Shown here: positions 30,738 to 50,885 of the stretch, piece after piece
Layout: each line of letters opens with the position of its first letter
Position numbering within the stretch: position 1 is the first letter of the stretch
Assembly: GCF_900114435.1 (NCBI RefSeq)
Contig: NZ_FOZK01000003.1
Coordinates: 248,001 to 312,000, forward strand
Origin: Halomicrobium zhouii
GTDB taxonomy: Archaea > Halobacteriota > Halobacteria > Halobacteriales > Haloarculaceae
Direction: 5' to 3'
DNA: 64,000 nucleotides
Position numbers and translations under genes: made by a program
Notes under the pieces: generated by a model
Seen by the model: the letters and a program-made list of their open reading frames with translations, nothing else
Database searches by the model: none
Told to the model about the DNA's origin: nothing

Positions 30738-30950
30738 CTGTTGTCTTTTGCGAGGTGGTGGAGGCCCTTATATCAACCTCTTCCCTGGCTCCGCTGGGCC
30801 CCGTAGCTCTCTGGCGGTTTTACCGTCTCGGATTTATTTCACACCAGCAATCTCGTACCTTTTGTCGTCGCAGTGACCCGTTGCCGTCCCGCACTCGGGG
30901 GACCGAAAGGAAACCTATTTTACCCGCCACCGGGAATCCTGAGTTGTCTT

Positions 30951-31024
30951 GGGCCGGTAGCTCAGTCCGGCAGAGCGACGGACTCTTAATCCGTCGGTCG
31001 AGGGTTCAAATCCCTTCCGGCCCG
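30951..31024 (+). tRNA. tRNA-Lys (CTT)
   Basis: 74-nt tRNA. The acceptor stem GGGCCGG pairs with CCGGCCC, the anticodon loop CTCTTAA gives anticodon CTT, the T-arm is GGGTTCAAATCCC, and the discriminator is G. The anticodon stem ACGGA/TCCGT closes correctly. A TATA-like CTATTTTACC lies upstream near 30916. The 22 bases at its 3' end recur twice downstream in the tandem repeat. Confidence 0.97.
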
Positions 31025-31280
31025 TTTTCCTGCGAACGAAGGTGAGGAGCGAAGCGGCTATGGAGGATTTGAACCCGGAGAGTCGCAGCGGTCGAACGAA
31101 GTGAGACCGACCGTCTCTCCTCGGTTCAAATCCCTTCCGGCCCGTTTTCCTGCGAACGAAGGTGAGGAGCGAAGCGGCTATGGAGGATTTGAACCCGGAG
31201 AGTCGCAGCGGTCGAACGAAGTGAGACCGACCGTCTCTCCTCGGTTCAAATCCCTTCCGGCCCGTTTTCCTGCGAACGAA
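31003..31280 (+). repeat. 120-bp tandem repeat seeded on the tRNA-Lys 3' end
   Basis: A 120-bp unit (tRNA T-arm and acceptor 3' end followed by CGTTTTCCTGCGAACGAAGG) repeats exactly at 31021-31140 and 31141-31260, with a third partial copy to about 31280. The 22-base tRNA 3' end GGTTCAAATCCC... is at 31003-31024, 31123-31144 and 31243-31264. Integrases commonly use tRNA 3' ends as att sites, so this may be the trace of repeated integration and excision, or simple tandem duplication. Confidence 0.9.
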
Positions 31281-31431
31281 GTGAGCAGTGAAAACGCCAC
31301 GAAGGGATTTGAACGACGCCACGAGCGAGCGTCAGCGAGCGAAGTGGAGGTAGTTCAAATCCCGAAAGATGCGCCGAGTACGTGTTCCGATACTCGCGGT
31401 CGGGTGGCTCCTGAGCCAATGACGTCCCGCC
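31281..31431. other. Gene-free segment after the tandem repeat
   Basis: No ORF of merit. It continues the AGTGAG-type low-complexity sequence of the repeat and contains one more degenerate T-arm-like piece (AGTTCAAATCCCG at about 31354-31366), which would be a decayed third copy of the tRNA end. Confidence 0.5.
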
Positions 31432-31866
31432 TCACAGCGCCAGAACCATCTCGACGTGGGGGATGCCCGTCTCGTCGTCGACAGGGCCGAGAGACTCGTA
31501 GCCGAGCGATTCGTAGAACTCCGCGACGCGAGTCTGGGCGTGGAGGAGCGCACGGGATCTGTTCTCGTTGCGGGCGTACTCGTGGGCCGCTCGCATCACG
31601 GCGTCGCCGACACCGCGGCCTCGGAACTCGGGGAGGACGGCGACGCGCTCTACCTTCGCCGTGTCCGCGTCGACCAGGCGGACGCGGGCGGTGCCGGCGG
31701 CGTCGGAGCCGACGCGCGCGACGAAGTGGCGGGCCGCACCATCTCGGTCGTCGAACTCGACGGGCTCCGAGACGCCCTGTTCCTCCACGAAGACGGTGCG
31801 GCGGATGGCGTGCGCCTCACCGGGTCGGTCGCTGGCGAGTACCTCGATGTCGTTCGCTGGGGTCAT
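31432..31866 (-). CDS. GNAT-family N-acetyltransferase
   Basis: 144-aa acetyltransferase of the ElaA/PhnO-like GNAT type, with FVEEQGV, the acetyl-CoA-binding LPEFRGRGVGDAVM loop and a C-terminal FYESLGYE motif. Its ATG overlaps the stop of the upstream acetyltransferase by 4 nt (ATGA). The two are paralogues sharing TAKVERVAV and .EFYE.LGYE. They form a tandem duplicate likely acting on different amine substrates. Confidence 0.88.
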   Translation of the reverse strand: MTPANDIEVLASDRPGEAHAIRRTVFVEEQGVSEPVEFDDRDGAARHFVARVGSDAAGTARVRLVDADTAKVERVAVLPEFRGRGVGDAVMRAAHEYARNENRSRALLHAQTRVAEFYESLGYESLGPVDDETGIPHVEMVLAL

Positions 31867-32300
31867 TCGAGTGACTTCTCCATCTCGACGTGGGCGATGC
31901 CAGCGTCCTGGAAGACGTCGCTGGTCGTTTCGTACCCGAGCCGTTCGTAGAACTCCTCGACTGCAGTCTGGCTGTGGAGTACGAGCGTGTCGACGTTCCG
32001 CTCGCGGGCGACGGCTTCGACGCGGTTCACGAGGCGTCTTCCCCACCCCCCTCCGCGGTATGGCTCACGGACGGCGACGCGTTCGACTTTGGCCGTGTCG
32101 TCGTCGAGTCGGCGGAGGCGTGCCGTTCCGATCGGTGTACCGCCCTCACGGGCCAGCAGGTGGGTCGCGTCGTCGTCGTGCCCGTCGCGTTCCCGCTCCG
32201 GCGGCACGCCCTGGCCCTCGACGAACACCTCCTCGCGAACGGCGATGGCCTGGTCACGGAGTTCGGCGTCGGCAGCGATATCTATCGACGTCTCGGTCAC
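31863..32300 (-). CDS. GNAT-family N-acetyltransferase
   Basis: 145-aa acetyltransferase with VFVEGQGVP, the REPYRGGGWGRRLV CoA loop and VEEFYERLGYE. A GTG start at 32300 (VTETSIDIAADAELRD) is preferred over an ATG at 32408, because the added N terminus is not family-like. It is the first gene of a two-gene acetyltransferase unit. Confidence 0.85.
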   Translation of the reverse strand: MTETSIDIAADAELRDQAIAVREEVFVEGQGVPPERERDGHDDDATHLLAREGGTPIGTARLRRLDDDTAKVERVAVREPYRGGGWGRRLVNRVEAVARERNVDTLVLHSQTAVEEFYERLGYETTSDVFQDAGIAHVEMEKSLE

Positions 32301-32453
32301 TGTCCGGTGGTAGGCCGTCGCAGGCGCAAGAAGGTTTCGCGGATCAGATTCACCAGGCACGACCAGCCCGACAGCGCGGGAAGCGGTGTGAGCCGCCTGC
32401 CAGTGCAAGCACGCCGGTCATCCCCCGTCAGTAAGAACATACAGTGGGTTGTC

Positions 32454-36223: not shown

Positions 36224-36402
36224 GGGGCTGTGGCCTAGTCCGGGAAGGCGGCTGACTCCAGAGGTCACACGCCAGGTGACGATATCCAGAGCTGATATAC
36301 CGAGCGTCCGACTGATCATCGGCCGCGTTGACGACCCTCTGGAGTACCGAGGCGTGGTACGGAGATATCAGCCGATCGTGGGTTCAAATCCCTCCGGCCC
36401 CA
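36224..36402 (+). tRNA. tRNA-Trp (CCA) with a 105-nt intron
   Basis: Exon 1 (36224-36261) begins with acceptor GGGGCTG and ends just after anticodon CCA (36258-36260) and G37. Exon 2 (36367-36402) gives TCAGC of the anticodon stem, the GGTTCAAATCCC T-arm and acceptor CGGCCCC with discriminator A. The junctions fit an archaeal bulge-helix-bulge. Haloarchaeal tRNA-Trp is known to have such an intron. Confidence 0.96.
36262..36366 (+). ncRNA. Box C/D guide RNA inside the tRNA-Trp intron
   Basis: The intron holds a C-like box (GTGACGA at 36276-36282). Two antisense elements are seen: CCTCTGGAGT (36336-36345), which complements the anticodon region 36255-36264, and GCTGATAT (36291-36298), which complements exon 2 at 36365-36372. 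In Haloferax the equivalent intron guides 2'-O-methylation of C34 and U39 of its own tRNA, and the targets here match those two positions. Confidence 0.85.
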
Positions 36403-36673
36403 CTCTTTCATCGAATGAAATCCACGAGCACCGCTTAGCGTGTGCTCGTCTCCAGTGAGCGGTAAGCGTGGTACCTGGAGGAATTTGAAGTAGACGAGTC
36501 AATGCCCGCGCAGCGACCGCAGGGAGCGAGGATGAACATCTCGGCGTAGTTCAAACTCACTCCGACCCCGCTCTTCCAGCGAATTAGCAACCAGAGAGTT
36601 GTAGAGGCAAGTCCCGGTGTCCGGTAGTGAGCTGGTACGACGTACTAAGTACCATAGTAGCAACATCTGCTCC
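36403..36673. repeat. Intergenic region with a degenerate copy of the tRNA-Trp 3' end
   Basis: No gene. At 36548-36590 the sequence AGTTCAAACTCACTCCGA and the following CCCCGCTCTTCCAGCGAAT repeats, with several mismatches, the T-arm, acceptor and flank of the tRNA-Trp (36383-36420). The two lie about 165 bp apart. The arrangement recalls paired att sites flanking a short or lost insert, or an old duplication. Confidence 0.55.
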
Positions 36674-50276: not shown

Positions 50277-50885
50277 TCAGGAGAGCGCGCGCATCGAGTA
50301 GTAAAAGCGCTGGAGCGCAGTGAGGTGGCCCACGAGCGCGAGGGCGACCAGCAGCCAGCCGACGATCGTGAGTCCGGCGACGGCGTCGGTGTAGAACGCG
50401 GCGACGCCGGCCGTAATGCCGATGAGGGCGAGCCGGTCCGCGCGGCCGACGAGGCCGCCGTAGACGCGGTCGAGGCCGACGGCCTGAGCCTGGGTTCCGA
50501 GGTACGAGGTCATCAGGACGCCAGTGACCGCGGCGAGGCCGATGTCGTACCGACCGATGCCGGCCGCGAGCCCCACCAGGAGGACGATGTCGGCGTAGCG
50601 GTCGAGGACGTGGTCGAGCAGGTCGCCAGCCCGGGAGCTGACGTCCAGCTCCCGCGCGAGCGCGCCGTCGACCAGGTCGAGCCAGCCGTTGACGAAGACG
50701 AGCACCGCGCCGGCCAGGTAGAGGACTGGATCGGAGCCCGCCAGGTAGAAGACGACGGCGGCCGCCGCGGCGGCGACGAAGGCGACGACGCTCACGCCGT
50801 CCGGCGAGATACCGAGGCGCTTGGCGCCGCCGACGAACGGCCCGAGCATCCTGTCGGCCAGGTCCCGGTATTTGTCCAGCGTCAT
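50277..50885 (-). CDS. CDP-alcohol phosphatidyltransferase (archaetidylinositol-phosphate synthase type)
   Basis: 202-aa membrane enzyme with the DLVDGALARELDVSSRAGDLLDHVLDRYAD motif of the family and about five hydrophobic spans. The haloarchaeal gene at the end of this hisC-kinase unit is usually named pgsA3 and is thought to make an archaetidylinositol-type phospholipid. Its ATG overlaps the stop of the AK6-like kinase by 4 nt (ATGA). Confidence 0.85.
   Translation of the reverse strand: MTLDKYRDLADRMLGPFVGGAKRLGISPDGVSVVAFVAAAAAAVVFYLAGSDPVLYLAGAVLVFVNGWLDLVDGALARELDVSSRAGDLLDHVLDRYADIVLLVGLAAGIGRYDIGLAAVTGVLMTSYLGTQAQAVGLDRVYGGLVGRADRLALIGITAGVAAFYTDAVAGLTIVGWLLVALALVGHLTALQRFYYSMRALS

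Follow-up and report, generated by a model that had tools for sequence, protein, structure and literature searches.

The tail array behind the tRNA-Lys(CTT) gene of Halomicrobium zhouii is one member of a fast-changing family of arrays that extends across Halobacteriales, and is not what a single lost virus left behind. Units of these arrays have the order L1-R-L2-F, in which F is a copy of tRNA nucleotides 53–73 and R is an inverted T-loop copy that pairs with F across a structured hairpin core, L2. From the sequence comparisons we tentatively read the array as short (mostly ~100–170 bp) non-coding cassettes that may insert or expand at tRNA 3′ ends, a reading to which we give a little less than an even chance.

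The tRNA-Lys(CTT) array

The window is the whole stretch of DNA that was analysed (64,000 nucleotides); its array features are collected in Table 1, with scores from R1, a covariance model of R-L2-F. The 22-mer GGTTCAAATCCCTTCCGGCCCG, the 3′ end of tRNA-Lys(CTT), starts at 31003, 31123 and 31243, a period of exactly 120 bp. The two 98-bp spacers between these copies are identical, and identity runs ~17 nt past the third copy; the first-pass annotation of this DNA had described the exact spacing and the identical intervening sequence correctly. TRF reports period 120 over 31003–31292 with 98% matches. GGTTCAAATCCCTTCCGGCCCG has three occurrences in the whole 4.25-Mb genome, all in the Lys array, and the reversed-pattern control had none. 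Inverted T-loop copies GGATTTGAACC, at ~31065, 31185 and 31304, alternate with the direct tail copies. The first-pass annotation had overlooked these, as well as the decayed third Lys unit and the unit behind tRNA-Trp.

The simplest account of the two identical 120-bp units is that one unit was duplicated recently. Similar repeats occur in two other genomes (exact over 105 bp at period 221 and over 102 bp at period 242), and identity between tandem units is thus no peculiarity of this assembly. Chance or assembly artefact was rejected for the family as a whole, though not for the copy number in this assembly, on the uniqueness of the 22-mer, the own-tail counts, the range of R1 and the adjacency to tRNA genes.

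Table 1. Tail-hairpin units and their anchor tRNA genes in the window
Feature	Position	Strand	Details	Basis
tRNA-Lys(CTT)	30950..31025	+	Anchor gene; tail nt 53–73 = 31004–31024	ARAGORN, sequence
Lys unit 1	31025..31144	+	L1 hairpin 31025–31061; R-L2-F hairpin 31062–31136; exact tail copy 31124–31144	Model R1, 78.4 bits
Lys unit 2	31145..31264	+	Same sequence as unit 1; R-L2-F 31182–31256; exact tail copy 31244–31264	
Lys unit 3	31265..31365	+	Decayed; L1, R-L2-F 31302–31365; tail reduced to T-loop half 31353–31363	R1, 27.2 bits
tRNA-Trp(CCA)	36224..36403	+	Second anchor gene; 105-nt intron; tail 36382–36402	ARAGORN with introns allowed
Unit behind tRNA-Trp	36403..36569	+	Decayed; R-L2-F 36478–36561; diverged tail copy from 36549	R1, 30.6 bits

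The loop motif of the hairpins, GARCGNAGYGAG, is found five times in the window against 0.43 expected, with three instances in the Lys array; the remaining two, at 877–888 and 50313–50324, are outside any tRNA flank. At 31432–32408 lies an adjacent pair of minus-strand genes, diverged tandem duplicates of each other (repeats D3 and D4; 74–79% identical), which presumably resemble GNAT acetyltransferases.

Tail copies at tRNA genes

We checked the flanks of the 53 tRNA genes (RF00005) of the H. zhouii genome (G000), counting as an own-tail copy any match with at most two mismatches of 18 within 400 nt. Such a copy lies downstream of 21 genes (17 of them exact over 18 nt) and upstream of none. 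Matches to the tails of other tRNAs were at chance level, or were real tRNA genes in a cluster at 253–259 kb of contig C2. With decayed copies in structured units counted, 27 of 57 tRNA records of this genome have at least one, and in four genomes together a unit is present at 56 of 120 tRNA records.

For tRNA-Lys(CTT), 80 named loci were recruited via the neighbouring protein; the tRNA was found in 67, and enough downstream sequence in 64. One to three tail copies lie downstream at 31 of these 64 loci and none at the other 33, and there is no upstream copy at any of them, so that repeat number does differ among relatives at this gene, the comparison that the first-pass annotation had proposed. 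Seven tail variants occur among the tRNA-Lys(CTT) loci, including a divergent one in Haloferax, and the copies match the variant of their own locus. Retrocopying of mature tRNA 3′ fragments was considered and rejected, since none of 54 tail copies is followed by the post-transcriptional CCA.

A dense group of ~12 tRNA genes beyond the scattered single-copy set (L148, G000 contig C2, 251014–260675) is almost without tail copies, and is perhaps of viral or plasmid origin. In G002 and G004 (L198 and L217), two neighbouring tRNA-Asp(GTC) genes ~116 bp apart have identical tails, a whole-gene duplication beside tail arrays.

Unit structure

L1 is a hairpin-like stretch that begins at the T-rich bases directly after the tail. 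We gathered 117 units (115 distinct) from four genomes and the named loci, with entry requiring R-F complementarity at no more than three mismatches of 11. R pairs with F in 110 of the 115 distinct units, and 105 of the 115 fold better than dinucleotide shuffles (z < −2), both partly by construction of the sample. Alignment A1 holds 32 of 72 units, picked by eye because they share one type of core, and its covariation results speak for that type; unit counts here and below ignore shared descent. In A1, 86.8% of cells are paired versus 73.2% in shuffles, and the covariation score is 0.362 versus 0.135 shuffled. In two pairs of the inner arms, which are independent of the tRNA, both sides have changed in 14 and 18 of the 32 units, respectively. 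One column, a T-T mismatch, is unpaired in 25 of the 32.

At T-loop positions 57 and 59, which vary, R is complementary to the tail of the resident tRNA in 142 of 150 cells; 5000 permutations gave a mean of 95.9 and a maximum of 111. Transitions in R that leave G-U on the tRNA-sense strand were found at 40 of 371 opportunities, versus 8 of 469 for those that leave A-C (ten positions; 84 units, not independent); for interior R positions only, the figures are 14 of 189 and 5 of 399. This excess of wobble over A-C mismatches suggests that it is the tRNA-sense strand that folds, either as RNA or as single-stranded DNA. R and F track the resident tRNA, and L2 cores are common to different tRNAs; Asn and Ala(CGC), whose tails differ, have a 53-nt core of 98% identity in common.

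Such conservation could mean that the arrays are structured trailer RNA, their R-L2-F hairpins acting in the tRNA precursor (in 3′ processing, termination, stability or sequestration). Gene conversion from the tRNA, along with recombination between direct repeats, would then keep the tails identical, and nothing would be mobile. The covariation with its conserved T-T mismatch, the wobble excess in R expected if the tRNA-sense strand folds, and the constant orientation behind tRNAs all argue for this. The asymmetry fits folded single-stranded DNA too, however, and about half of the tRNA genes in the four genomes have no unit, as do close relatives at the same tRNA, so no unit is essential. Nor did Rfam give any match above gathering score besides tRNA at six array loci; a known RNA family was rejected, the only other entries there being five sub-threshold eukaryotic ones. 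We consider a trailer RNA somewhat unlikely.

Taxonomic range

R1 matches 46 places in the H. zhouii genome at E ≤ 0.1. At 1e-4, 51 of the 294 phylum genomes searched match, all labelled as own genus, family or order (Halobacteriales). Among the genomes listed, G105 and G140 are the order members without a match, and every other listed non-matching genome is outside the order; the figures are 51 of 53 inside the order and 0 of 241 outside if the genome list is sorted by kinship.

The association with tRNA genes is close, a same-strand tRNA lying within 700 nt upstream at 57 of 59 R1 loci (30 of 30 in the own genome, 27 of 29 in others). The exceptions are L267, which lies beside assembly gaps and has a partial tRNA-like sequence on inspection, and L282, with tRNA-Phe on the opposite strand. 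Two weaker matches in the own genome had also looked exceptional: one is behind the intron-bearing tRNA-Trp, and the other is 13 kb behind tRNA-Arg(TCT).

Turnover between relatives

Arrays at orthologous tRNAs differ among close relatives; the sequence that directly follows the tRNA in one species is often found behind a later tail in the other. Taking as a clean flank match a score over the 99.5% background, presence or absence falls exactly at the tail boundary at Val(GAC) and Asn between G002 and G004, at Asn and Lys between G000 and G005, in Haloferax (L107 and L115 versus L109 and L114) and in Haloarcula (L071 versus L070). Ser(GGA) of G000 and G005 scored below the cut-off and was judged by inspection, again as gain or loss of a unit at the tail boundary.

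Where an older unit or remnant is present, the additional unit adjoins the tRNA (Asn and Lys in G000, Val(TAC) in G004). Among 22 arrays with at least two copies, the distal tail is the more mismatched in 15, the proximal in one, and six are tied. Between G000 and G005, the L1 blocks at Val(TAC) and at Thr(CGT) have changed places. The Val(TAC) units of these two genomes have L1 in common but not L2; L1-R-L2 therefore does not always move as one piece.

Clean presence or absence at direct repeats can also reflect precise loss by ordinary direct-repeat recombination, which is described for Haloquadratum (PMC3119063). Such loss probably contributes to the turnover, and in Haloferax it is the likelier direction of change. 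Unit repertoires at the same tRNA differ between species, so gains must occur too.

Integrase elements and possible carriers

Mobile DNA lands at tRNA 3′ ends more often than anywhere else, and the first-pass annotation had read the Lys array as a multi-copy att cassette that could be a scar or a landing array for later insertions. One part of this stands: the copies are att-like, running over tRNA nt 53–73 from T-loop to discriminator base. A scar or landing array peculiar to tRNA-Lys is not supported, as many tRNAs have own-tail arrays; moreover, relatives carry the arrangement at loci with no inserted element, close to the outcome that the annotation had itself set against its idea.

The same att-like extent favours the general form of this explanation, in which the arrays are att copies left by ordinary integrase elements after provirus or plasmid loss, and there is a parallel in Haloquadratum, where a prophage end is described as having a 22-nt tRNA duplication beside an integrase (PMC3119063). 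Against it, the inserts are near-uniform (the period of tail copies is 102–169 bp from the 10th to the 90th percentile) and their hairpin cores are common across tRNAs and genera. The integrase element of the own genome and the searches for a viral or plasmid carrier, described below, speak against it as well, and we hold it to be very improbable.

That element is a ~13-kb integrase-bearing insertion at tRNA-Arg(TCT) (L172, G000 contig C1, 120400–140399), with a tail copy after its PF00589 gene. Only 14 bp of the tail are in common, and there is no hairpin inside the end of the element; the tail search at two or fewer mismatches did not pick up this copy. Past the integrase gene and the 14-bp copy, 13 kb behind the tRNA, sits an older tail-hairpin unit; the tRNA-Arg(TCT) end seems to have taken in an ordinary integrative element, which pushed this unit away. 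The element lacks a hairpin and displaced an older unit, and the units of the arrays are therefore not just the termini of such elements. It is the only integrase element near an array tRNA, and it was rejected as a source of units, having 14 bp of tail and no unit in its end.

A search for recombinases linked to the units gave five PF00589 matches in the genome, none of which adjoins an array except that of the 13-kb element; the Lys array and the other tail arrays have no adjacent match. The array had no blastn match among phages and plasmids. Four patterns were searched in IMG/VR: two had no matches, one had two matches in capsid-like coding genes on contigs without tRNA, and one had matches on three contigs. 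A viral or plasmid carrier was rejected, as none of these five contigs matches R1 and the phage and plasmid records hold no unit.

How units may arise

If the units are inserting cassettes, they would be added beside the tRNA by recombination at the T-loop, the incoming tail replacing or duplicating the tRNA 3′ end. The probable agent would be a tyrosine recombinase supplied in trans that recognises R-L2-F when the tRNA-sense strand folds into its hairpin. Identical tails would afterwards recombine with each other and thereby duplicate, delete and reorder units, the two identical 120-bp units being one such duplication, and older units would be pushed outward and then decay. R may be retained because it keeps the spare tail of a read-through transcript folded away from the tRNA. 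Insertion or expansion at the T-loop would account for the extent of the tail copies, the clean boundaries, the freshness of proximal units and the common cores; a need for folded R-L2-F would account for the covariation and the strand asymmetry, although the asymmetry fits a trailer RNA equally well. A mobile unit with R matching each target must be either tRNA-specific by descent or remade at the target.

Template switching in replication at quasi-palindromes offers a mutational route, which would make inverted tail copies behind tRNA genes that slippage then multiplies. The alternation of direct and inverted tail copies with hairpin spacers suits such fold-back, as does the loop motif GARCR, present in 71 of 72 L1 regions. 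Its sequential version predicts that errors in R are inherited by F, yet in many units F is exact and R degenerate. The conserved internal loops and the conserved mismatch persist, and a mutational process of a general kind would not by itself explain why different tRNAs have L2 cores in common or why the units are restricted to one order. This route is improbable in our judgement.

The fullest form of the cassette reading would be an order-wide set of gene-less cassettes found only at tRNA 3′ ends, with a folded T-loop copy as the recombination substrate, inserting beside the tRNA and decaying outward. Such a set would amount to an integron-like array that has a tRNA gene as platform, no cargo, and specificity re-matched to each tRNA. 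In this full form it is doubtful.

Relation to known systems

Archaeal integrases use short att sites (review, PMC8371274). The tRNA att sites of haloarchaeal proviruses and tyrosine integrases (SNJ2, HF2-type) resemble the units in that the tRNA 3′ end is duplicated from T-loop to discriminator, downstream of an intact gene. They differ in that the units have multiple copies, a conserved hairpin spacer with an inverted T-loop, and many tRNAs per genome. The shared tRNA 3′ end of an att scar is present, whereas neither element or remnant genes nor an integrase lie between the copies, the units being short and non-coding.

Integron attC arrays are like the units in being cassette-like, with apparent proximal addition and distal decay, and in having an imperfect hairpin with conserved unpaired positions, a variable tip and a fold-sensitive strand. 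The likeness is one of working only: in both, an imperfect hairpin folds, and its structure is conserved while its sequence is not. The attC R box has the consensus GTTRRRY / RYYYAAC, whereas the tails read GTTCRA, with C as fourth base. Unlike integrons, the units have no genes and no linked integron integrase (PF00589 search), and a tRNA gene is their anchor.

Short, palindromic, intergenic and non-coding units with alternating inverted copies recall REP/BIME sequences, as well as the small mobile repeats PATE, MITE and SMR described for Haloquadratum (PMC3119063). By contrast with these, the units occur only in tRNA 3′ flanks, matched anew to each tRNA, and no parent transposase was found. 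The dispersal of REP/BIME beyond one gene class is not seen, given the near-constant position behind same-strand tRNAs, and by inspection the units do not end in inverted repeats, as MITEs do. Casposons duplicate their target at a tRNA 3′ end and can insert serially at one site, both of which recall the units; these differ in being ~100 bp, without cas1 or polB and without terminal inverted repeats across the unit.

A full-text search of the open-access literature gave no description of tail-hairpin arrays, which does not of itself establish their absence from print. No such arrays are described in the relevant parts of PMC3119063, PMC3623002, PMC9897764 and PMC8371274, and the main text of a 2022 article on archaeal integrons (PMC9668308) has no word beginning with 'halo' or 'tRNA'. 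Self-matched tail-hairpin arrays behind about half of the examined tRNA genes seem to have gone unnoticed. If mobile, the units would be a minimal system for learning how specificity for a site is maintained, or made afresh, across many tRNAs; if RNA elements, they would add a new layer to the processing of archaeal tRNA 3′ ends. In both cases the arrays can mislead annotation into false tRNA fragments, false att sites and false proviruses, and they provide quickly changing markers for following array turnover in Haloferax and Haloarcula, both of which can be grown and manipulated.

Intron-bearing tRNA genes

The default tRNA scan missed the intron-bearing tRNA-Trp(CCA) of the window, the second anchor gene of Table 1. 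Elsewhere in the genome, ARAGORN with introns allowed also gave genes with introns of 32–38 nt: tRNA-Lys(TTT) at G000:C6:45072–45183, a "Thr(CGT)" at C2:98862–98968, and Gln(TTG) at C2:930690–930794.
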